Shown piece by piece: positions 7,178 to 22,577 of a stretch of DNA of 36,621 nucleotides (its first letter is position 1; each line of letters starts with the position of its first letter). Under the pieces are notes generated by a model that was not told where the DNA came from, did no database searches, and saw only the letters and a list, made by a program, of their open reading frames with translations. The translations under genes and the position numbers were made by a program. The DNA comes from Chromatiaceae bacterium (GTDB lineage: Bacteria; Pseudomonadota; Gammaproteobacteria; Chromatiales; Chromatiaceae), in the NCBI GenBank assembly GCA_013426805.1, contig JACDZG010000075.1, positions 1-36,621 of the forward strand, in the 5' to 3' direction.

Positions 7178-8061
7178 CTCCACTCGCGCACGACGACGCC
7201 GTCGCCTGGCCGGCGCCGGCTAAACTGAATTTGATGTTGCGTGTTCTCGGTCGACGCGCGGACGGATACCATCGGTTGCAGACGGTGTTCCAGTTCATCG
7301 ATCGCTGCGATCGGTTGTGGTTTGTTCCGCGCGCTGATGGTGCGATCCGGCGGGCGACCGAGATCCCCGGGGTTGCTGCCTCCGCGGACTTGACCGTGCG
7401 CGCCGCACAGGCGTTGCGGGCCTTCACTGGTTGTCGCCTTGGGGTGGACATCCGGCTGGAGAAGGTTCTGCCCATGGGTGGCGGGCTCGGGGGCGGCAGT
7501 TCCGATGCCGCGACCACGCTCGTCGCTTTGAACCGGCTGTGGGGTCTTGATCTCGGTGAGGATGAACTGGCCGGCATCGCCCTGCCATTGGGGGCGGATG
7601 TGCCGGTCTTCGTGCGGGCGCGGGCGGCTTGGGCTGAAGGCGTCGGTGAGGATCTGACTCCGGTGGCGCTGCCGGAGCCCTGGTATCTGGTACTGATCCC
7701 ACCTGGTCAGGTCTCGACCGCGGCGGTTTTTGCCGATCCCCAATTGACGCGCGACTCGCTTCCCATCACACTAGCCGACTTCTTGCGAGGAGAGCGGCGC
7801 AACGACTGCCTCGACGTGGTACGCCGCGGCTATCCTGAGGTGGCGGCCGCCCTCGCTTGGCTGAATGAGGGCGGTGGTGGTCAACTGACCGGTACCGGCG
7901 GCTGTGTCTTTGCGTCCTTTGCGGATCAGGAGACCGCACTTGCCGCATGCGAACGCGCACCGGAGCGCTTTCGGGCCTTTGTTGCCCGTGGGTGCAACCG
8001 CTCGCCACTGCTCGACCGATTGGCGTCCGACGTGGCGTCGACAGTCGAAACGAACTCCTGA
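7174..8061 (+). CDS. ispE: 4-diphosphocytidyl-2-C-methyl-D-erythritol kinase
   Basis: IspE phosphorylates CDP-methylerythritol in the MEP pathway to isoprenoids, which in a phototroph supply carotenoids, the bacteriochlorophyll tail and quinones. The 295-residue product starts with WPAPAKLNLMLRVLGRRADG, typical of the family, and carries the GHMP-kinase ATP loop PMGGGLGGGSSDAATTL. The C-terminal part contains LTGTGGCVFASF, the second glycine-rich motif. The ATG at 7174 overlaps the TPR-gene stop (ATGA), which argues for translational coupling. A longer frame from 7072 lies inside the TPR gene and is rejected. Confidence 0.95.
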   Translation: MTPLAHDDAVAWPAPAKLNLMLRVLGRRADGYHRLQTVFQFIDRCDRLWFVPRADGAIRRATEIPGVAASADLTVRAAQALRAFTGCRLGVDIRLEKVLPMGGGLGGGSSDAATTLVALNRLWGLDLGEDELAGIALPLGADVPVFVRARAAWAEGVGEDLTPVALPEPWYLVLIPPGQVSTAAVFADPQLTRDSLPITLADFLRGERRNDCLDVVRRGYPEVAAALAWLNEGGGGQLTGTGGCVFASFADQETALAACERAPERFRAFVARGCNRSPLLDRLASDVASTVETNS

Positions 8062-8084
8062 GGTTTTGCATTCATCGTCTTTTT

Positions 8085-13298: not shown

Positions 13299-14276
13299 TT
13301 ATCGGTGAGCGGTTCCTGACCTGGGCCTCCAGCCTAGCAGTGCGGCTGCCAGATAGGCCAGCAGTCTGACCTTGCTCGGCCGTGTTACCCAGGCCCTGGT
13401 CAAGGCCGCCAGGCCTGCACCGCGGCGGCCCACGCGCAGTTGTCCCAGGGCATAGGCCGCTTGGTAGTCAGCGAGCTGGCCGAGAAATGTCCCCCGCGGG
13501 ACGCAGCGACCATCCGGACTGCACAATCCCCAGGTGCGCATCGCCCGCCGCAGCAGCAGCGTTCGGTAATCATGCGGGCGCACCACGCGGTTGCCCTGTT
13601 GGGGATGTTGGCGGTATAGCGTGTCCGGCCGCGTCAGCTTGACGAAGGTGAAAGCACGCGAGATCCGCAACCACAGATCCCAGTCCTCACCAAAGGGCAG
13701 CGTTTCATCGAAGACCCCGCAACGGTCAAAGACCTCCCGGCGGAACATGGCGGTACTGGTCAGCATCCAGCAATCGAGCAGGAACTGGTGGTAGATCCAG
13801 CCGGAGAACGCGGCGTCGATTGCGTCGTGACAGGCCCCCAGGTCGAAACCGGCAGGCGCTGGAAACCGGCCGGCTGCATCCGCCGACCATTGAATGAACG
13901 CGCTGTAGACGACCCCGCAGCCGGGGTGTTCCCGCATCGCCGTCACTTGTCGCTGCAGCTTGTCGGAAAACCAGTAATCGTCATGGTCCAGCAGGCACAG
14001 ATAGCGCCCGCCGGCCTCCCGAATGCCGCGATTGCGGGCTGCGCAGACGCCGGCGTTGGCTTGGGTGATCAGGCGCACGCGGGGACCACAGGCCCTGACG
14101 ATCGCGCAGGTGTTATCCGTGGAGCCGTCGTCCACCACGATCAGCTCGAGGTCACCGAAGGTCTGATGCAGCACGCTGTCGATGGTCTCGGTGAGATAGG
14201 GCGCGCTGTTATACGTGGGGATGATGACGGAAACCACTGGTGCCGTTGGTGCCGCCCTGGTGTTGTACTCAGGCAT
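13299..14276 (-). CDS. Family 2 glycosyltransferase
   Basis: This 325-residue GT-A fold enzyme opens with VVSVIIPTYNSAPYLTETID and ELIVVDDGSTDNT, the nucleotide-sugar-binding signature of GT2. The metal-binding acidic motif is in LCLLDHDDYWFS, and FGEDWDLWLRISRAF fits the ED motif region of the acceptor site. The sugar and acceptor cannot be deduced. It starts 9 bases after the decarboxylase gene's stop, on the same strand, so it is probably the last gene of the minus-strand surface-polysaccharide unit. It ends convergently with sufS, 38 bases apart. Confidence 0.9.
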   Translation of the reverse strand: MPEYNTRAAPTAPVVSVIIPTYNSAPYLTETIDSVLHQTFGDLELIVVDDGSTDNTCAIVRACGPRVRLITQANAGVCAARNRGIREAGGRYLCLLDHDDYWFSDKLQRQVTAMREHPGCGVVYSAFIQWSADAAGRFPAPAGFDLGACHDAIDAAFSGWIYHQFLLDCWMLTSTAMFRREVFDRCGVFDETLPFGEDWDLWLRISRAFTFVKLTRPDTLYRQHPQQGNRVVRPHDYRTLLLRRAMRTWGLCSPDGRCVPRGTFLGQLADYQAAYALGQLRVGRRGAGLAALTRAWVTRPSKVRLLAYLAAALLGWRPRSGTAHR

Positions 14277-14285
14277 TGGTTTGGC

Positions 14286-15620
14286 TCAGCCGACCAGCGC
14301 CTGGGCCGGCGGCGGGTGCGACAAGAAGCCCAAGGGGCTGGCCGAGTAGCCATAGGCTCCGGATTGCAGGATGGCGATCAGATCGCCGGGTGCGCAGCGC
14401 GGCAGGTCAATCTGATCAGCCAGGAGATCGAGCGGGGTGCAAAGCGGCCCGACGACCGTGACCCGGTCGCGCGTGTCGACCGGCGACGCGCGGGCGGCGG
14501 CGATGACCGGGAAGTTCTTGCGGATGACCTGCCCAAGATTCCCGGAGGCGGCAAGGTGTTGATGCAAACCGCCGTCGGTGACCAGATACGTGCGTCCGCG
14601 TGACACCTTGCGGTCGATCACCCGACAGACGTAGATTCCGGCCTCGCCGACCAGATAGCGCCCCAACTCCATCACCAGTTCGGCGTCGCGCAAACCGGGG
14701 CCGAGGGTTGCGATGCGCTCCGCGAGATTGGCGGCGATGGGTGTGAGGTCGAGCGGTTGCTCTCCCGGGAAATAGGGGATGCCCAGTCCGCCGCCGAGGT
14801 TGAGATAGGTAACCGGCGCCGGCGCCTGCCGCGCCAACTGCTCCGCGAGTGCCAGGGTTCCGGTATGGGCCTCGATGATGGCTTCGGCGCTCAGGTTTTG
14901 TGAGCCGGTGAAGATGTGGAAGCCGCGGAACCCGACCGGGAGGCTGCCGAGGTGCGCCAGCAGATCGGGGACCTGCTCCACATCGACCCCGAATGGTTTC
15001 GGTCCGCCGCTCATTTTCATGCCGGACGCTTTCAGTTCGAAATCCGGATTCACGCGTACGGCGACGCTGGGACGAATGCCCATGGCGTGTCCGATGTGGG
15101 CGATCCGTTCCAACTCTCCGGCCGATTCCAGGTGCAGGGTGATGCCGGCCGCGACCGCCGCACGCAGTTCGCGGTCCGTCTTTCCCGGGCCGGCAAAGCT
15201 GATCCGGTCGGCGGGGATGCCGGTGTCCAGCGCGACCTGTAACTCGCCCAGCGAAGCCACGTCGAAGCCATCGGTCAGACCGCGCAGGTGCTGAACCAGG
15301 GCGGGCATAGGATTGGCCTTGATCGCATAGTGCAGGCGCAGGCGCTCCGGCATGGCGGCCCGCCAGTGCGCGGCGCGGCGGCTCAACGCGGCGCGGTCGT
15401 AGGCGTAAAAGGGCGTGCCGCCGATCCGGTCGGCCAGGCGGCTGACCGGGATGCCGCCGACCATGAGTTCACCGCGCGCGTCGCGAACGCTTGCGCCGGC
15501 AGCGTGCCCTCGTTGGTCCGCCGCGGTGTCGATCCGGTGATCGGTCCCGTGGTCGATCCCGTGGTCGATCCCGTTGTTGATCCCGTTGTTGATCCCGTTG
15601 TTGATCAGGTTGTCCGTCAT
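14286..15620 (-). CDS. PLP-dependent Orn/DAP/Arg-type decarboxylase, exosortase-associated type
   Basis: The 444-residue product is a fold-III PLP decarboxylase related to LysA: FYAYDRAALSRR and LHYAIKANPMPALVQHLRGL (Lys of the PLP site) are followed by GFHIFTGSQNLSAEAI and YLNLGGGLGIPYFPGE. Paired with the adjacent AMP ligase it resembles the decarboxylase family found in exosortase-A/PEP-CTERM loci; its substrate there is not established. The start ATG overlaps the ligase stop (ATGA). Residues 3-30 are seven tandem four-residue units (NNGI/DHGI) encoded by a 12-bp DNA repeat, an addition before the usual family N-terminus. Confidence 0.88.
   Translation of the reverse strand: MTDNLINNGINNGINNGIDHGIDHGTDHRIDTAADQRGHAAGASVRDARGELMVGGIPVSRLADRIGGTPFYAYDRAALSRRAAHWRAAMPERLRLHYAIKANPMPALVQHLRGLTDGFDVASLGELQVALDTGIPADRISFAGPGKTDRELRAAVAAGITLHLESAGELERIAHIGHAMGIRPSVAVRVNPDFELKASGMKMSGGPKPFGVDVEQVPDLLAHLGSLPVGFRGFHIFTGSQNLSAEAIIEAHTGTLALAEQLARQAPAPVTYLNLGGGLGIPYFPGEQPLDLTPIAANLAERIATLGPGLRDAELVMELGRYLVGEAGIYVCRVIDRKVSRGRTYLVTDGGLHQHLAASGNLGQVIRKNFPVIAAARASPVDTRDRVTVVGPLCTPLDLLADQIDLPRCAPGDLIAILQSGAYGYSASPLGFLSHPPPAQALVG
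15531..15614. repeat. 12-bp tandem repeat, 7 units, inside a coding region
   Basis: Seven in-phase 12-base units lie at 15531, 15543, 15555, 15567, 15579, 15591 and 15603. The central unit GATCCCGTTGTT is repeated three times exactly, and the outer units differ by a few bases. Because 12 is a multiple of three, copy-number change would keep the decarboxylase in frame. Confidence 0.95.
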
Positions 15621-17221
15621 CGGGAAGGCTCCCCGCGAAAGAGGTCCGCGAAGCGCGAGGCCAGTCGCTTGCGATCGATCTTGCCGTTTGGATTACGCGG
15701 CAGGTGCGACTCGAACAAGACCCGTTGCGGCACCATGAAGCCGGGCAGGGTGTCGCGGCAATGCGCGATGACCCGTGCTTCGAGGTCGGGGCGGTGGGCA
15801 GCGGCCGTGGCGACGACCAGGATCGCCTGACCAAGGGTCCCGTGCGGGACGCCGACGGCCGCCGCCTCGGCCACCAGCCCGGAGCCGTAGATCACCTCTT
15901 CGACCTCGGTGGGGCTGACGCGGTACCCGGAAGTCTTGATCTGCTCGTCCCGACGGCCGATGAAATAGAGGTAACCGTCCGCATCGCGGCGGACCTGGTC
16001 GCCCGACCAGACGGCCAGTTCCGGGTTGGGGAGCCCGCCGGGCTGGCCCGGCGCCGGCCGAAAGCGTTCGTGGGTCCGCGCGGGGTCGTTCCAGTAGCCC
16101 AGGGACACCAGCGCGCCGCGATGCACCAGTTCGCCGGGTTCATCTGGTCCGCACAGGCTGCCGTCCTCCCGTACCACCAGGACCTCGGCGTTGGGAATGG
16201 CCCGACCAATGGAGTCGGGACGCGCGTCAACCAGCTCCGGGGGCAGATAGGTCGAGCGGAAGGCCTCGGTCAATCCGTACATCAGATAGATCCGGGTGTT
16301 CGGCAGCCGGCGGCGCAAGGTCTGCAACGTGGGGGCGGGCAGCGACCCGCCGGAGTTGGTGAGGTAGCGCAGCGAGGTGCGGGCGGCGTGCGGCCAGTCG
16401 AGTCCGGCGACCTGCATCCACAGCGGCGGCACGGCCGCCAGTCCGGTGATGCCGTAGCGGGTGACCGACCTGATCACGTCAGTGGGCAGCAGGTAGTCCA
16501 TCAGGACGACTGCCGCACCAGCGGCAAACGCGGTGGTGAGTTGACTCAGTCCGTAGTCGAAACTCAACGGCAGTACCGCCAGGAGACGATCCTCCGGTCG
16601 GTTCTCCAGATACTCGGCAACGCTCAATGCCCCGGCGATCAGATTGCGGTGCGAGAGCACTACGCCCTTGGGTGCGCCGGTGCTGCCTGAGGTGTAGAGG
16701 ATAGCAGCCATGTCGGTGTCGATGCGGCGGTGTCCGGTGGGGCCGCCGTTGGTGACGTCCAGGATTCCGCAGGCGCGGACACAGCGGGCGCGCAAGGGTT
16801 CGGCGATGTCCGTCGGCGAGCCGTCGACCAGTACCACCTGCCACAGGTCCGGGCACTGTGTCAGCATGCCGACCAGGTGTTTGGCCCGCTCGACTGAGGT
16901 TACCAGGATGCGTGCATTGCAGTCGCGCAGGATGTGGGCGACCTGAAACGGCTTGATCAGTGGGTTCAGCGGCACGAAGCAGCCGCCCGCCGCGGCAGTT
17001 CCGAAGAGCGCCCCCAGGGTGTCGAAGCATTTGGGTAGGTAGACGCCGACCCGATCGCCGCCGTCGAGTCCCAGTCTGAGCAGTCCGGCGCGCCAGTGTT
17101 CGATGAGTTGCCACAGTGCCCGATAGGAGAGCGTCTCGGTGCGGTGGATCAGGGCGTCCCGGTCGGCGAACCGCGACAGGGCCATGTGAACCAATTCGTG
17201 CACCAATGTGATGTTGAGCAT
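15617..17221 (-). CDS. AMP-forming acyl-CoA ligase, exosortase-A-associated type
   Basis: The 534-residue member of the ANL superfamily activates a carboxylate by adenylation. The P-loop-like motif is ILYTSGSTGAPKGVVLSHRN, the A5 region is YLMYGLTEAFRSTYLP, the hinge region is GYRVSPTEVEEV, and the terminal catalytic Lys lies in NPNGKIDRKRL. The pairing with a LysA-like decarboxylase is the pattern of the ligase/decarboxylase couple described in exosortase-A (PEP-CTERM) surface-polymer loci. The carboxylate activated is unknown. The stop overlaps the decarboxylase start by 4 bases. The start is ATG at 17221 (MLNITLVHELVH). Confidence 0.88.
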   Translation of the reverse strand: MLNITLVHELVHMALSRFADRDALIHRTETLSYRALWQLIEHWRAGLLRLGLDGGDRVGVYLPKCFDTLGALFGTAAAGGCFVPLNPLIKPFQVAHILRDCNARILVTSVERAKHLVGMLTQCPDLWQVVLVDGSPTDIAEPLRARCVRACGILDVTNGGPTGHRRIDTDMAAILYTSGSTGAPKGVVLSHRNLIAGALSVAEYLENRPEDRLLAVLPLSFDYGLSQLTTAFAAGAAVVLMDYLLPTDVIRSVTRYGITGLAAVPPLWMQVAGLDWPHAARTSLRYLTNSGGSLPAPTLQTLRRRLPNTRIYLMYGLTEAFRSTYLPPELVDARPDSIGRAIPNAEVLVVREDGSLCGPDEPGELVHRGALVSLGYWNDPARTHERFRPAPGQPGGLPNPELAVWSGDQVRRDADGYLYFIGRRDEQIKTSGYRVSPTEVEEVIYGSGLVAEAAAVGVPHGTLGQAILVVATAAAHRPDLEARVIAHCRDTLPGFMVPQRVLFESHLPRNPNGKIDRKRLASRFADLFRGEPSR

Positions 17222-17463
17222 GTCGGTGCGGTGTCAGCAGGGGCGGTGAAAGATGATAGGGAATGCCGTTAAACCGCGTCCAGCGCGAAATGCACAATTT
17301 TCATGGTGTGTTTAGCACTGGGGATTTCACCAACCTCGGTGGAGCGGAGACACGGTGTCATATTGCTGTTTCTAAAAACTATAATCCGCGCCGGCCCCGG
17401 CAATTGTCGAGTCTGCCGGGGTCTATCCCATCGAAAAACGTCGCCTACCGCGCTGCGCGCGGT
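17222..17463. other. Intergenic region upstream of ligase gene
   Basis: This 242-base spacer lies between the deacetylase gene and the ligase gene, both on the minus strand. It is AT-richer than its surroundings (17300-17385) and so may hold the promoter of the ligase-decarboxylase-glycosyltransferase unit. A TATAAT at 17380-17385 reads on the plus strand, where no gene follows, and is probably coincidental. Confidence 0.4.
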
Positions 17464-18405
17464 TTAGGCGATATGACGCATGTTCAACAGCAGCCGGATA
17501 CCGAAGCGCATAGGCGTCCGCTCCCACGGCGTGAAGCGAGGGAGGCGCATGGGATCCGTGCCGGCCACGGCGACTCCGTGTCCGGTGGTCAACGCCGCCT
17601 GATACCCGAGTGTTCGGACCATGGCGGTATGCGTTTCGGTGAAATCCAACTCCGGCTTCCCATTGGGATAGGCGAAGAAGCGCAAGCGCGTCCCCAACAG
17701 CCCTTCAAGGTCTTCTTTGTTCTCGGCAATCTCCTGATAGGCCGTCTGATCTGGGGTCCGTGCGAGGATCGGATGGGTGACGGTATGGCCGCCGATTTCG
17801 CACCCCTGGTCGTAAAGTTCCCGCACCTGGGCGCGGGTGAGCATGGGCGAGGTCAGGTCCGGTGCATAGCGGGCCGCGAGATCCGCCGCCACTTCGTCGC
17901 GCTGCTCCGCTGTCTGGTATTTGAATACACGAAGCAGGTCTCGCACCAGCATGGCGCGTGCCCGCGGTCCACCCAGCGGCCGGATCCCGGCGCCGTAGGG
18001 GGTCAGATCGACGCTGGGGCCGGGGCAGCGCCTGATCGCCTGACAGAGTCGATCGTTCCACATGCACCGGCCATCAAGGTAGCCGCTAGCGACAAAGAGC
18101 GTAGCGGGAATCTCCAGGCGCTGCAGGATGGGGAAAGCGACTTCGAGGTTATCGGCGTAGCCGTCATCGAAGGTGACGCTGACCGCGCGCGGCGGCAGCG
18201 TGTTGTGTGCGAGTCGATACAAACCCTCGACCAGCGACAGTGGCCGGAAGCGCTCACGGACCAGATGCATCAGTTCGGCGAAGGTCGGTGCATCCGGATC
18301 GCTCGCCAGGAAGGCGTCCGGGGCGGGCAGCACGCGGTGAAACACCAGCACCGCGAGGCGCCGTGGTGTGTCGACGCGTAACAGTCGGTGTAGGGTACTC
18401 AGCAT
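17464..18405 (-). CDS. Polysaccharide deacetylase (NodB-type, CE4)
   Basis: The 313-residue product carries the NodB homology domain: SVTFDDGYADN supplies the catalytic and metal-binding Asp pair, and EIGGHTVTHPILA supplies the metal-binding His pair (HTVTH). The family removes N-acetyl groups from surface polysaccharides. The N-terminal LAVLVFHRVLP segment is common in polysaccharide-cluster members. I chose the ATG at 18405 (MLSTLHRLLRVDTPRRLAVL); an open frame to 18555 adds about 50 low-complexity residues. It is probably functionally tied to the ligase, decarboxylase and glycosyltransferase downstream, though 242 bases away from them. Confidence 0.85.
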   Translation of the reverse strand: MLSTLHRLLRVDTPRRLAVLVFHRVLPAPDAFLASDPDAPTFAELMHLVRERFRPLSLVEGLYRLAHNTLPPRAVSVTFDDGYADNLEVAFPILQRLEIPATLFVASGYLDGRCMWNDRLCQAIRRCPGPSVDLTPYGAGIRPLGGPRARAMLVRDLLRVFKYQTAEQRDEVAADLAARYAPDLTSPMLTRAQVRELYDQGCEIGGHTVTHPILARTPDQTAYQEIAENKEDLEGLLGTRLRFFAYPNGKPELDFTETHTAMVRTLGYQAALTTGHGVAVAGTDPMRLPRFTPWERTPMRFGIRLLLNMRHIA

Positions 18406-18559
18406 CAGCCGTTGACTCAACCTGCCCGGCCGGGGCGCGGCTGCCTCCTGCCTTCTTTGTTGGCGCGCGGCCGCCATCGGCGTGTGCTCGGCTGGCGGAC
18501 AACGCGCGGGCCGGCCCCAGGCGCGGCCGGCCCGTTGCGATGCCCCGCGCGGCACTGCC

Positions 18560-18898
18560 TCAGTAGCCGCCTTTGCGCATCACTTCGGGGAGTCCGGCAA
18601 TTTTTGTGCCCTGTTTAGTCGGGGCCAAGGGGAACAGGAGGTATAGGTCCTTGCTGGCGGGCTTGGTACCCCAGCGTTTGCCGATATCCTTGAGAACAAC
18701 ACGTTCCATCGGTTGGTTCTGACCGTTGTTGATGTACTCGTCACGCAGGTAGTTGATGACGTCCCAGTGTTTGTCGGTGAGCGTGATCCCCTCGATCTCC
18801 GCGAGTGTCCGCGCAACATCCTCGTTCCAGTCGAGGTGGTTGACCAGGTAGCCGTGGTCGGTCGTCTCGATGCTTACGCCATTGACCTCGATGGCCAT
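18560..18898 (-). CDS. DsrC/TusE-family protein lacking all cysteines (RspA-like)
   Basis: The 112-residue product clearly aligns with DsrC: GYLVNHLDWNEDVARTLAEI, LTDKHWDVINYLRDEY and LYLLFPLAPTKQGTKIAGLP mirror the dsrC product encoded at 25049. DsrC works through two C-terminal cysteines (Cys100 and the penultimate Cys111 in the window's own DsrC). Here the aligned positions are Thr98 and Gly111, and the protein has no cysteine at all, so it cannot carry persulfide or form the trisulfide. Cysteine-free DsrC homologues have been called RspA and proposed as regulatory. DsrC has a helix-turn-helix-like region, so DNA binding is an inference. The start is ATG at 18898 (MAIEVNGVSIETTDHG). A candidate promoter lies upstream at 18974-19002. 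Confidence 0.9.
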   Translation of the reverse strand: MAIEVNGVSIETTDHGYLVNHLDWNEDVARTLAEIEGITLTDKHWDVINYLRDEYINNGQNQPMERVVLKDIGKRWGTKPASKDLYLLFPLAPTKQGTKIAGLPEVMRKGGY

Positions 18899-19078
18899 GT
18901 GCTTGTTCCTCGTCGTCTGTGTCTGTGGGTGACCATGGCGCACGCCAGCGGGCGCGCCAATTAAAGCCCCATAATTTTATGATATTCTGATAGGTTCGTC
19001 ACGGCCTCTCGTGAGGTTGTGGCCGACCGTCAGGCGACTCGCTTGCGGCGATTGCCGGATTAGACAGCACAGCGTTTT
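18899..19078. other. Spacer between Cas6-like and DsrC-like genes
   Basis: The 180 bases contain an AT-rich patch (18960-18992) holding a promoter candidate for the DsrC-like gene. A hairpin on plus-strand RNA, GTCACGGCCTC (18999-19009) with GAGGTTGTGGC (19014-19024), pairs if G-U pairs are allowed. No direct-repeat array is seen. Confidence 0.5.
18974..19002 (-). promoter_or_regulatory. Candidate sigma-70 promoter of the DsrC-like gene
   Basis: Read on the minus strand, GTGACG (19002-18997) and TAAAAT (18979-18974) are separated by 17 bases. This matches the TTGACA/TATAAT consensus at 4 of 6 and 5 of 6 positions. It lies about 75 bases upstream of the ATG at 18898, in an AT-rich patch of otherwise GC-rich DNA. 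Confidence 0.4.
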
Positions 19079-19765
19079 TCAGGGCGTCTTGCCGACCGCG
19101 TCGATCCCTTTGTGAGGGATGAAGATGCCACAGCCCATGAGGCGGTGCAGCCCGAGTCCCTGCTGTTGCAGGCGGAGTGATTCATCAGGTTTCAGTCCGG
19201 CGAGCAACAGGCTGCGGGTCGTGATCGCGCCGTTCGGCGTTTCCAGCGTGTTCGACTTGCCGCACAGCGCCTTGCGGATTTTGATCCCCAACTGCGCCAG
19301 CGCTTGGGCGGCGCTGTTCATGAATGCCTCCTCATCCGGACCCGCGGCAGATACCAGATAGCGGGCGAACAGCACGCTCTCCGTGCTCAGCGACCTTATC
19401 TTGCCCGCGCCGACGGTCAAGGACGAGCCGGCGACCTCGATCCGGGTTCCGGGCAGCGCGTCGAGTAACTCGGGCGCGCGCGCCCGGGGCAGCCGCAGAA
19501 TGAGTTTGGTGCGGCGCGACAACTGGATCCGGCTTTCAGTGCCGTGGGTCGGGCGCTCCCACCCATTCTGGGAGCCAGCGACGTGAACCGTGTGGACGCC
19601 GAGCCCCGGTTCGTGGCCGATCCAGGGGCAGGCGGCGACCAGCGCGCTGCTCAGCGCATAGGCATGATCAACCGGCAGGGCGCGACAGGCGATGGTGAAG
19701 AGGCAGTCAACGATGGTGTCGGGGACCGCCAGGGTGTCGAGGGTTTCGTCTTGACTCCAATGCAT
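19079..19765 (-). CDS. Orphan Cas6/Cmx6-like RAMP protein
   Basis: The 228-residue product resembles the Cas6/Cmx6 family (type I-MYXAN group). Features include the N-terminal IACRALPVDHAYALSSAL, the central LSRRTKLILRLPRARAPELL and AGSSLTVGAGKIRSL, and a C-terminal glycine-rich loop QQGLGLHRLMGCGIFIPHKG like that of RAMP RNA-binding proteins. Cas6 proteins cut CRISPR precursor RNA at repeat hairpins. No CRISPR array or other cas gene is visible in the window, and the gene lies between a DsrC-like gene and two unknowns next to dsrA. A role in RNA processing or binding linked to sulfur metabolism is inference. His in PVDHAYAL could be catalytic, but I cannot assign the active site. Confidence 0.72.
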   Translation of the reverse strand: MHWSQDETLDTLAVPDTIVDCLFTIACRALPVDHAYALSSALVAACPWIGHEPGLGVHTVHVAGSQNGWERPTHGTESRIQLSRRTKLILRLPRARAPELLDALPGTRIEVAGSSLTVGAGKIRSLSTESVLFARYLVSAAGPDEEAFMNSAAQALAQLGIKIRKALCGKSNTLETPNGAITTRSLLLAGLKPDESLRLQQQGLGLHRLMGCGIFIPHKGIDAVGKTP

Positions 19766-19850
19766 TCAGATGCTCGCGACGGGGTGATGACAAGCCTTCT
19801 CAATATGACTTCCCGGGGCTGGGTGCGTTGCTGGGGGCGGGCAGCAGCGT

Positions 19851-20582
19851 TCAGCCGAAGGGTAAGCGCTCTTGCAGTGCTTCGCGATCGAACCACCAGT
19901 CTCCCTGAACCAGGCAATCGACGACGCTGCGTAATCGCACCAGGAAGTGCTCCGGCTCGGTCAGGTCCAGCTGTTCCATCCAGGCGTCGAGTTGTTCGGG
20001 TGATTCCACCCCGCTATGGCGCCGCGCTACGGCGCCGAGCAATTGCGTCGTAAAGAACATCAGATCGTCACGATGTTTGCCCTCGGCTCGCACATCCGCC
20101 AGGAACAGGGCGGTGGTCGCCGCCACCGCGGCCCCGTCGGCATCGTCCGGGGTCTCGTCGATGACATGCGCGAGTAACTCAATGGTGAGTTCCGGATCGA
20201 TGGGGCAGGTCACCGCCAGCCAGATGCCCTGGCCTAAGGCGCAGATCGATGCGGGTTGTTCGGCTTGGAACAGCACGTCGCAGGCGTCGGCCGCAGATTC
20301 GAAGTCGTCAACTTCAAGGAACAGATCGAAGGCCGCACGGGCGAGCGGCCAAGCCGCTTCCCCACGCCCCAGGCCGACCAGGGTCCGCGCGACCTGCAGC
20401 CGGGTGTCGGCGATCGCCTTTGCCGGCCCGTCGCGGCGTTCCAGCTCGCGAAGTCGCTCCCGGAGCGCGTCGAGATGAGACTCCAGGGCCGCGCGTTCGC
20501 TCTGGCCGAGCCGGGGGTCGACGGTCGGATTGGTCAAGCTGACCGTCAGCAGGTCGAGAGAGTTGATCATAGGATTAGGCAT
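19851..20582 (-). CDS. Unknown helical-repeat protein next to dsr
   Basis: I do not recognise this 243-residue product. It is acidic and almost entirely helical in appearance. After a helix with alternating Arg/Glu (LDALRERLRELERRDGPAKA), residues about 55-110 (RTLVGLGRGEAAWPLARAAF, FESAADACDVLFQAEQ) resemble TPR-like helix pairs. A second helical half ends with a Trp-rich segment (VQGDWWFDREALQERLPFG). No signal peptide or membrane segment is visible, so it should be cytoplasmic. It starts 8 bases after the 63-aa gene's stop, implying cotranscription, and its stop is 85 bases before the Cas6-like gene. Possible starts are ATG 20582, ATG 20570 and GTG 20585. Confidence 0.75.
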   Translation of the reverse strand: MPNPMINSLDLLTVSLTNPTVDPRLGQSERAALESHLDALRERLRELERRDGPAKAIADTRLQVARTLVGLGRGEAAWPLARAAFDLFLEVDDFESAADACDVLFQAEQPASICALGQGIWLAVTCPIDPELTIELLAHVIDETPDDADGAAVAATTALFLADVRAEGKHRDDLMFFTTQLLGAVARRHSGVESPEQLDAWMEQLDLTEPEHFLVRLRSVVDCLVQGDWWFDREALQERLPFG

Positions 20583-20589
20583 CACTGAC

Positions 20590-20781
20590 TTAGCGGATCA
20601 GACCGCTGAAAGCGGCTTCCAGGCGATCTTCCCAATTATCCGGCGTGTCCGGGTAGGGTGGTTTGACGTCCATCCGGAAGAACCGCTCCCCACCGCGGGC
20701 GACGTCCTGAACCAGTGGGATGAGCTCTCCGAAGGACTCTACCTCTTGGTGGGTCACGAGAATGTCGCTGAGCTTGAGCAT
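20590..20781 (-). CDS. Small unknown 63-residue protein
   Basis: The product starts MLKLSDILVTHQEVESFGEL and contains GERFFRMDVKPPYPDTPDNW followed by a short helical tail. The dense pattern of aromatic, acidic and proline residues looks like a real, constrained small protein rather than a shadow frame. I cannot name a family. A longer frame from 20850 adds a basic, unlikely N-terminus, so I prefer the ATG at 20781. It is the first gene of the minus-strand set that diverges from dsrA, and the 243-residue gene follows at once, so the two may work together. Confidence 0.65.
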   Translation of the reverse strand: MLKLSDILVTHQEVESFGELIPLVQDVARGGERFFRMDVKPPYPDTPDNWEDRLEAAFSGLIR

Positions 20782-20940
20782 GGTTCGATGAGACCGCCCT
20801 GAATGCCTATGTCTGGGGGCCAACGTGAAGATCGTTCCGCGCAAATGCAAGCGGGCGGCGCATCGCCGCGCCCGGCGTCGGCGGCGTCGTCCCGGCCGAC
20901 GTCGGCCCGGCAGCGGACCGCTGCCAGCCCCGGCTAGGCC

Positions 20941-20968
20941 AATGCATTAGGATGTGCTAATATTAGGA
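20941..20968 (+). promoter_or_regulatory. Possible operator: related palindromic motifs before dsrA
   Basis: AATGCATTAGGA (20941-20952) and AATATTAGGA (20959-20968) are near-repeats 18 bases apart. The second lies in a perfect 10-base palindrome, CTAATATTAG (20957-20966), and the first contains AATGCATT. Being AT-rich, symmetric and directly upstream of a promoter candidate, they could bind a dimeric regulator. Confidence 0.4.
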
Positions 20969-20972
20969 ACCG

Positions 20973-21001
20973 TTGACTGACTGGCCGCCCATCGGTAACA
21001 T
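20973..21001 (+). promoter_or_regulatory. Candidate promoter of the dsr operon
   Basis: TTGACT (20973-20978) and TAACAT (20996-21001) are separated by 17 bases and match the sigma-70 consensus at 5 of 6 and 4 of 6 positions. Transcription from here would give a leader of roughly 315 bases before the dsrA ATG. Other start points closer to dsrA cannot be excluded. Confidence 0.4.
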
Positions 21002-21323
21002 CCAACCGGTCATCGAAAGACGCGCACGCGCCGCGACATGCTGGAGGACATCCGCAGCGGCACCAGGTCGGTCAATATCCCGAAAGGGGTAGATCGGAGC
21101 GATACCGCCCTCCCCACCGAGGGATGGGATCGCCCCATAGCGACCTTTAAAGTAGCGCCTGACGCTGGGGATTTCGGCACGCGAAAATATGAATGATCGC
21201 CGATCCCTCCGTCTTTAGATTCGCAACGATGTAGCGCCCCCGTAACGGCTCGCTGCCGCGCTCGGGTGTGCGCACTGCGATCGGATTCTTTTTCGCAAGC
21301 TACCAGATCGGAGAGACAGCGCA

Positions 21324-22577
21324 ATGGCGATCGATAAATATAGCACCCCGATGCTCGATCAACTGGAGACCGGCCCCTGGCCAAGTTTCATCTCTGGTAT
21401 CAAGCGTCTGCGCGACCAGCACCCGGATGAACGCATCAATAAGATGACCAACAGCCTGCTCGGGCAGTTGGAGCATTCCTACGAGACGCGCAAGGGCTAC
21501 TGGAAGGGCGGGACTGTGTCGGTCTTAGGGTATGGCGGCGGTATCATCCCGCGCTTCTCCGAGGTCGGTAAGGCGTTCCCTGAATCCAAGGAATTCCATA
21601 CCTTGCGTGTGCAGCCGCCGGCGGGCAACCACTACTCCACCGCCATGCTGCGCCAACTGGCCGACAGTTGGGAAAAATACGGTTCCGGTTTGATCACCTT
21701 CCATGGTCAGACCGGCAACATCATGTTTATCGGCACCGACACCGCCAACACCCAGCATTTCTTCGACGAGATCAACGAGTACGGATGGGATCTGGGCGGG
21801 GCCGGCCCCTGCGTGCGCACGGCGATGTCCTGCGTCGGCGCGGCGCGTTGCGAGATGTCCTGCACCAACGAGCTCAAGGCGCATCGGATGCTGGTGAACA
21901 ACTTCGTTGACGACGTGCACCGTCCGGCACTTCCCTACAAGTTCAAATTCAAGGTCTCCGGCTGCGCCAACGACTGTCAGAACGCCATCGAGCGCGCCGA
22001 CTTCGCCGTGCTTGGCACTTGGCGCGACGACATGAAGGTCGATCAGGCCGAGGTGAAGAACTACATCGCTGACAAGGGCCGACAATACTATATCGATAAC
22101 GTCATCACCCGCTGTCCGACGCAGGCGTTGTCGCTCAACGATGACGATACCCTGAACGTCAACAACCGCGACTGCGTGCGCTGTATGCACTGCCTGAACG
22201 TCATGCCCAAGGCGCTGCACCCCGGCGACGATAAGGGCGTGACCATTCTGATCGGCGGCAAGCGCACCCTCAAGATCGGTGACCTGATGGGCACGGTCCT
22301 GGTGCCGTTCAAGAAGCTCGAGACCGAGGAAGACTATGAATCCCTGGTGGAGCTCGCCGAGACCATCATCGACTTCTGGGCCGAGAACGGGCTGGAGCAC
22401 GAACGCTGCGGTGAAATGATCGAGCGTATCGGGTTGGCTAACTTCCTCGACGGTATTGGTGTCGACCCGGATCCGAACATGCTGAGCCATCCCCGTCAGA
22501 GTTCCTACATCCGCCTGGACGGTTGGGACGAGGCCGCGGAAAACTGGTTCGAGCGTCAGGCCGAGGCCGGGCGCTGA
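21324..22577 (+). CDS. dsrA: Reverse dissimilatory sulfite reductase, alpha subunit
   Basis: DsrA forms the alpha2beta2 siroheme enzyme with DsrB; in sulfur oxidisers it acts in reverse, oxidising stored or DsrC-bound sulfur to sulfite in the cytoplasm. The 417-residue product has the siroheme-[4Fe-4S] cysteines Cys170-x5-Cys176 and Cys214-x3-Cys218 (VGAARC, CANDC). An inserted ferredoxin domain follows, with Cys264 and Cys284-x2-Cys287-x2-Cys290. The context (dsrEFH, dsrL, dsrN) marks the oxidative type. It is the first gene of the operon, with GGAGAG ahead of the ATG and a long leader. Confidence 0.98.
   Translation: MAIDKYSTPMLDQLETGPWPSFISGIKRLRDQHPDERINKMTNSLLGQLEHSYETRKGYWKGGTVSVLGYGGGIIPRFSEVGKAFPESKEFHTLRVQPPAGNHYSTAMLRQLADSWEKYGSGLITFHGQTGNIMFIGTDTANTQHFFDEINEYGWDLGGAGPCVRTAMSCVGAARCEMSCTNELKAHRMLVNNFVDDVHRPALPYKFKFKVSGCANDCQNAIERADFAVLGTWRDDMKVDQAEVKNYIADKGRQYYIDNVITRCPTQALSLNDDDTLNVNNRDCVRCMHCLNVMPKALHPGDDKGVTILIGGKRTLKIGDLMGTVLVPFKKLETEEDYESLVELAETIIDFWAENGLEHERCGEMIERIGLANFLDGIGVDPDPNMLSHPRQSSYIRLDGWDEAAENWFERQAEAGR

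Follow-up and report, generated by a model that had tools for sequence, protein, structure and literature searches.

Why should a gene for a Cas6-like RAMP protein, paired with one for a DsrC homologue devoid of cysteine, stand back-to-back with the dsr operon of a Chromatiaceae bacterium? The question arises from the window, by which we mean the whole stretch of 36,621 nt analysed here (GCA_013426805.1, contig JACDZG010000075.1, forward strand). For purple sulfur bacteria and chemosynthetic symbionts, reverse dissimilatory sulfite reductase (rDSR) is one of the main ways to oxidise sulfur, and to our knowledge the control of its expression and assembly is largely open. By comparing genomes, we show that a predicted accessory locus, with a Cas6 homologue and a cysteine-free DsrC paralogue ending in KGGY as its putative core, accompanies the dsr operon throughout the sampled Gammaproteobacteria. 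We found no description of this pair in open-licence PMC full text, and the closed literature may hold one.

The association of the Cas6-like gene with dsr is near certain. In a class sample of 369 genomes, judged to be Gammaproteobacteria by their named relatives, 111 genomes carried both Cas6 and dsrA, 7 Cas6 only, 8 dsrA only and 243 neither (118 Cas6 and 119 dsrA carriers; Fisher odds ratio 482, p 7e-75), in line with the original prediction; dsrA was counted here at a best E-value of at most 1e-30 with partial genes included, 112 of the 369 genomes lying above the model cut-off, and weaker sulfite-reductase matches were excluded. Both genes lie within 8 kb in 82 of the 111 genomes that carry them; for the other 29, they were found on different draft contigs in 27 cases and truly apart in two (G149, 42 kb; G364, 518 kb). 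The exceptions to co-occurrence were then inspected. All seven Cas6-only genomes (L236-L242) were examined: six contigs end before the expected dsrA or hold a dsrA fragment, and L242 provides 2.3 kb without dsrA. Five of the eight dsrA-only genomes were examined (L272-L276; G119, G250 and G277 were left out): four contigs end about 0.15, 0.2, 0.7 and 1.8 kb upstream of dsrA and that of L272 ends just past two genes described below, dsrQ and U63, so that the absence of Cas6 cannot be affirmed in these five. Scattering of the genes in non-sulfur bacteria, which the original prediction had named as evidence against itself, is therefore not what we found, since in the class sample a dsrA match is missing from just 7 of the 118 genomes with Cas6, and cut contigs are involved in six of these; nor is the adjacency unique to one strain, as it recurs across many families. 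Cas6 and DsrA distances are correlated over 103 loci (r 0.64, 0 of 999 permutations) and, in a phylum sample of 249 genomes (the PF09559 and dsrA counts, equal in size and carriers, being taken as one sample), the three genomes with PF09559 all have an adjoining dsrA.

The locus of the window and its divergent neighbour are composed as follows:

20590-20781, minus strand: U63, a 63-aa protein of a family without a name (open reading frame; conserved DVKPP..DTP..WE..LE..F)
19851-20582 from the ATG, minus strand: U243, a 243-aa all-helical, TPR-like repeat protein (open reading frame, predicted fold)
19079-19765, minus strand: Cas6-like RAMP protein of 228 aa (PF09559/TIGR02807; glycine-rich loop)
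18972-18982, minus strand: TCATAAAATTA, a conserved motif that may serve as the -10 of a separate promoter for the DsrC-like gene
18560-18898, minus strand: cysteine-free paralogue of the DsrC/TusE family, 112 aa, C-terminal RKGGY (PF04358/TIGR03342)
21324-22577, plus strand: dsrA, which opens the divergent dsr operon (open reading frame, profile)

The four minus-strand open reading frames thus exist as predicted, back-to-back with dsrA and the plus-strand dsr operon. Of the close cluster that had been described, the U63-U243 pair stands (7 bases apart, for a predicted 8 or less) and the rest is unequally spaced, with 85 nt between U243 and Cas6 and 180 nt between Cas6 and the DsrC-like gene, this last spacer containing the conserved promoter-like motif. 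Among relatives, PF09559 was detected in 37 of 55 genomes (own genome included), with a single locus each, and all four genes were present at 27 of the 36 relatives' loci around it, several others being truncated where their contigs stop. Named genomes, when scanned, yielded at least 575 relatives, of which the best 80 were kept (titles Chromatiales or other Gammaproteobacteria, a few only Proteobacteria or Bacterium): U63 was found in 75 of these 80 loci, and all four genes plus dsrA in 48.

The Cas6/Cmx6-like assignment made by the original prediction is borne out. The protein scores 220.8 bits against PF09559 (cut-off 26.7) and 130.4 bits against TIGR02807 (cut-off 98.85), and its predicted fold (pLDDT, the predicted local distance difference test, 89) has Cas6 proteins as its best structural matches in the PDB. 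With Foldseek, the Cas6 of a type I-B CRISPR-associated transposon (CAST) came first (E 3.3e-15, template-modelling scores 0.74/0.78), followed by P. furiosus Cas6 and Cse3-RNA structures; sequence search of the PDB retrieved type I-B CAST Cas6 at 2.7e-22. On these profile and model grounds, the protein is firmly predicted to belong to the Cas6 family. The Cas6-type RAMP fold with its C-terminal glycine-rich loop is present in the predicted fold and alignment, and fold, loop and profile scores above cut-off are what it has in common with CAST Cas6 (PDB 8fcj/8fcu) and with the Cas6/Cmx6 of PF09559/TIGR02807. Five residues, H34, R85, R91, E145 and G213 in the numbering of the window (profile columns 34, 85, 91, 144 and 212), are invariant in all 150 unique Cas6-like sequences; H34 would open the first helix, a position that we take the catalytic His of Cse3 to occupy as well. 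In contrast, 8fcj has Asn at the position of H34 and a gap in place of the NGW segment. Unlike the Cas6 of CRISPR systems, the window protein comes without array or cas operon and has dsr genes as neighbours. No CRISPR-like array was detected in the window or in L270 and L271, two genomes considered below, and Cas1 is absent from 41 of the 80 Cas6 carriers tested; given this absence and the dsr association, the Cas6-like protein is independent of CRISPR.

The other core gene encodes a protein that matches the DsrC/TusE family over nearly its full length (PF04358, 113 bits; also TIGR03342), as does Allochromatium vinosum DsrC (1yx3). It differs from that family in the loss of both C-terminal cysteines, the penultimate redox-active one included, in an arm two residues longer that ends in RKGGY, and in being usually encoded with Cas6. 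With no Cys anywhere in the translation and a KGGY tail, it appears unable to carry sulfur on cysteine, as the original prediction had proposed. This tail is a family trait: 114 of 207 unique DsrC-family rows end exactly in KGGY and one is cut after KG, the remaining 92 having no KGGY columns and, in 90 cases, the Cys tail of the operon DsrC. GY occupies the last two tail columns in 114 of the 114 rows with a residue there, and 107 of the 114 KGGY rows have no Cys in the model columns. A KGGY DsrC-like gene lies within 2.5 kb on the same strand at 107 of the 137 Cas6 loci that have at least 1.5 kb downstream, some genomes being present in both locus sets. We take cysteine-free DsrC homologues to be those also named RspA. 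Such homologues are noted for the Solemya velum symbiont in passages of PMC4287430.

The Allochromatium genomes show the gene unlinked: all eight have a KGGY DsrC-like protein (80-88% identity), whose gene either shares no contig with dsrC or is separated from it by hundreds of kb. Genome G061, almost surely A. vinosum, has five DsrC homologues, at 28, 410, 855, 1443 and 1749 kb, corresponding in order to Alvin_0028, 0345, 0732, 1256 and 1508; from this gene order, the unlinked KGGY protein of A. vinosum would be Alvin_1508. According to passages of a published study (PMC11267869), on pyrite dsrA, B, E and F went down by log2 4.7 to 2.9 and Alvin_1508 by 2.9, dsrC itself went down by just 1.2, and Alvin_0028, 0345 and 0732 went up. 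This single experiment gives independent support to the co-regulation of Alvin_1508 with dsr.

Around the core pair, U63 has no Pfam, NCBIfam or PDB match and, in most of the pairs compared, is under tighter constraint than the other three genes. U243 is predicted to be all-helical (pLDDT 91) and looks TPR-like; no Pfam or PDB sequence family and no Foldseek match under 0.001 were found for it, one of its 27 members matching CRISPR_Cse2 at E 0.0011. All four genes are under purifying selection, with dN/dS of 0-0.33 in the unsaturated pairs (8 pairs). In L048, a HEARO RNA (RF02033, 106 bits) lies between U63 and U243 at 7841-8069, where a mobile element would have split the pair. In most of the 12 wide U63-dsrA gaps examined, a tauD-like frame of 244-323 aa occurs on the module strand, and by profile such a gene is common in the loci (the L121 protein, divergent from dsr, scores 73.6 bits against PF02668). 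A tauD-like gene upstream of dsr and divergent from it has been called dsrQ (Lenk 2012, as cited in PMC7596348), and that of many of our loci is placed likewise; in contrast, the passages of PMC7596348 name no Cas6, U63 or KGGY protein, and the window has no tauD-like gene between U63 and dsrA. The order dsrQ-U63-(U243)-Cas6-KGGY is retained over many families.

The original prediction treated the four genes as one set, and all four do occur together in many loci. Parts of the set also occur alone. In other classes, dsrQ and U63 were present at four rDSR loci that lack Cas6 and the KGGY protein; at three of these they stand beside a gene which we presume to be siroheme-synthase-like. In L283, L284 and L285, U63 stands between dsrQ and this gene, a position hinting that U63 is linked to sulfite or siroheme. 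Conversely, L270 and L271 have Cas6 and KGGY-DsrC and no U63, and U243 is missing at many loci, including four genomes of 1.0-1.1 Mb. From gene content, our guess is that L270 and L271 are beta-like and L282-L285 alpha-type. To judge by this gene content, the locus is a composite of dsrQ-U63, U243 and Cas6-KGGY, with Cas6 plus KGGY-DsrC as its predicted core, a pair that was observed in no class but that of the window. The four genomes of 1.0-1.1 Mb examined (L228-L230, L265) retain dsrQ-U63-Cas6-KGGY, with the KGGY tail in all of them.

Three things speak for a dedicated rDSR accessory function: the co-occurrence with dsr, the survival of the locus in reduced genomes, and the fact that a RAMP protein is paired with a sulfur-blind DsrC. 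Strict conservation of the RNA-binding features of Cas6 leads us to prefer, tentatively and at somewhat less than an even chance, the reading of a domesticated Cas6-type RNA-binding or RNA-cutting factor which, together with a DsrC mimic, would act in RNA-level control or co-translational assembly of rDSR. A Cas6 would have been taken out of CRISPR and would bind, and probably cut, a structured RNA in trans rather than in the dsr leader. The DsrC-like protein would dock on a normal partner of DsrC, most likely DsrAB, through its DsrC body and an unreactive C-terminal arm, without taking sulfur. Through the pair, RNA-level control of Dsr proteins, or their co-translational assembly, might then respond to the state of DsrAB, be it occupancy or assembly, with the TPR-like U243, where present, as a possible adaptor. 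A more specific proposal, for which we would claim slightly less, is that the domestication of a Cas6 RNA endonuclease goes back to an ancestor of the sulfur oxidisers among Gammaproteobacteria, and that the enzyme serves energy metabolism as a dedicated riboregulator or maturation factor, the invariant KGGY tail of the DsrC mimic paired with it reporting on the DsrAB active-site channel. CRISPR machinery would in that event have been reused, apparently, within a respiratory enzyme system, for sulfur metabolism instead of virus defence. An accessory pair that accompanies dsrA in 111 of the 119 dsrA-positive genomes of the class sample and is kept at 1 Mb is a direct, testable candidate for rDSR control or assembly; A. 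vinosum is a genetically workable host for it, and the case illustrates how a metabolic gene family can go unnoticed under a CRISPR label.

The original prediction suggested that the module perhaps acts on dsr mRNA or senses DsrC state. One candidate cis element for action on dsr mRNA is the palindrome of the dsrA promoter, which in the window is predicted to comprise:

21075-21092, plus strand: box 1, palindrome ATATCCC-GAAA-GGGGTAG (consensus CTATCCC-N4-GGGATAG)
21108-21129, plus strand: box 2, degenerate in the window (consensus CCCC-N4-GGTGGAAT), just upstream of the -35 position
21148-21153, plus strand: predicted -10 hexamer TAAAGT

Upstream of dsrA, 89 distinct intergenic regions were kept out of 96 (the seven dropped share their first 40 bases with a kept one), and 76 of them, with at most three palindrome mismatches and within 420 nt of dsrA, served for spacing. 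Their common pattern is CTATCCC-N4-GGGATAG, 25 or 26 nt (59/76), GGTGGAAT, 21 nt (54/76, ties broken towards 21) and TAnAnT, this -10 being exact in 61 of 76 regions versus 3 of 228 control windows. A palindrome with at most one mismatch was found in 50 of the 89 regions versus 0.05 per set in shuffles that preserve single-base composition only; the window copy has two mismatches and a shifted box 2 spacing. The palindrome reads as a DNA operator. A reading of it as a CRISPR-repeat-like leader hairpin targeted by Cas6 was rejected: being centred some 65 nt upstream of the conserved -10, it should stay untranscribed from that promoter, and some Cas6 carriers lack it. Folded spacers occur between dsrA and dsrB (mean z -2.67, n=69) and between dsrC and dsrM (mean z -2.55, n=65), with no shared sequence seen; as Cas6 targets they were rejected too, because the hairpins do not follow Cas6 in other groups. 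Rfam gave two matches only in window positions 20500-21500, both far below gathering scores (E up to 1). Of the regulatory module originally proposed, the dsr association, the CRISPR-free Cas6 fold and the cysteine-free DsrC are retained; dsr mRNA as its target is so far unsupported, as the candidate cis elements do not track Cas6.

Several observations weigh against RNA-level action of a domesticated Cas6. No cis RNA target was found in the dsr operon among the promoter palindrome and the two intercistronic hairpins tested. The palindrome is absent (at least five mismatches) in three of the four reduced genomes, and only a poor copy (four to five mismatches) stands in the two U63-less loci; Cas6 and KGGY-DsrC persist in every one of these. 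The dsrA-dsrB hairpins are present in three of the four rDSR loci without Cas6 and missing in reduced genomes with it. H58 of the Cas6-like protein is not universal (142 of 150 unique sequences), Cas6 evolves faster than DsrA, and shared regulation rests on a single experiment, reported in the passages of PMC11267869 cited above. Lastly, none of the 46 genomes of other classes with dsrA over the cut-off has PF09559. Loci were examined for 19 of them: four have a full dsrABEFHCMKL row, so that at least there the pathway runs without Cas6, one has dsrEFH and dsrAB, and the rest have dsrAB with, at most, a dsrL-like gene, so that sulfur oxidation need not be assumed for most of the 46.

Next to RNA-level control we rank a pure protein-assembly role, which we hold to be unlikely. 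Here the KGGY arm would act as a placeholder or inhibitor within DsrAB, and the Cas6 fold would be no more than a protein scaffold, in an assembly or activity factor without any RNA role. Such a factor would suit a DsrC body and arm that are kept with a tail invariant to its last residue, the lack of an RNA target among the dsr elements tested, and retention in reduced genomes, where loss of regulation is expected. However, a His/Arg set conserved in 150 of 150 sequences, together with the glycine-rich loop, goes beyond what a scaffold seems to need, and the module was not found in rDSR loci of other classes.

Transcriptional control, with the DsrC-like protein or another factor binding the palindrome and box 2, is a doubtful alternative. 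DsrC has been put forward as a possible DNA-binding protein. The operator-like boxes stand at fixed spacing to the -10 in 76 of the 89 distinct intergenic regions, and a passage of PMC7787665 cites DsrC as putatively involved in regulating transcription. The boxes are nevertheless missing or poor in the reduced genomes and U63-less loci given above, all of which have the KGGY protein; a palindrome with at most one mismatch occurs just 0-4 times per genome in the genomes of 23 relatives, and none precedes the unlinked KGGY gene of Allochromatium within 260 nt, the best match there having 5 to 7 mismatches in all eight cases. This explanation also gives Cas6 no role. We consider it equally improbable that the genes are neighbours by inheritance only, dsr-linked but of unrelated function, where U63 would serve with dsrQ or in the supply of siroheme and Cas6-KGGY would work separately: the loci of other classes without Cas6, with their presumed siroheme-synthase-like gene in three of four, and the U63-less L270 and L271 would fit, but not the gene order conserved over many families. 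Finally, a remnant or living part of a type I-MYXAN/I-B CRISPR-Cas system present by chance is very improbable, since the NCBIfam type I-MYXAN Cas6/Cmx6 match above cut-off is outweighed by the lack of arrays, the frequent absence of Cas1 and the association with dsr.

Some further observations concern neighbouring genes and other loci. No plasmid match was obtained at 1e-5, and no relative was found among 18 pattern stretches of viral contigs. Second dsrA/dsrB copies occur in L278, L279 and several other genomes, with no module beside them in the stretches examined. In L150, a Parabeggiatoa metagenome-assembled genome, two U63 matches (9488 and 9859) precede Cas6, with no dsr gene in the 20 kb examined. 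L132 has a full-length Rfam 5_ureB_sRNA match (RF02514, 121 bits) at 7514-7796. In the window, dsrP is followed downstream by a gene with a CobB/GATase match, one with Fe-S_biosyn just below cut-off and a third without match, which we take, from known gene order, to be dsrN, dsrR and (by position) dsrS. A 51-nt unit stands in three tandem copies at the contig start (1-153), and beyond the module, positions 13299-18555 hold genes for an acyl-CoA ligase and a decarboxylase, both exosortase A-associated, along with those for a glycosyltransferase and a polysaccharide deacetylase.

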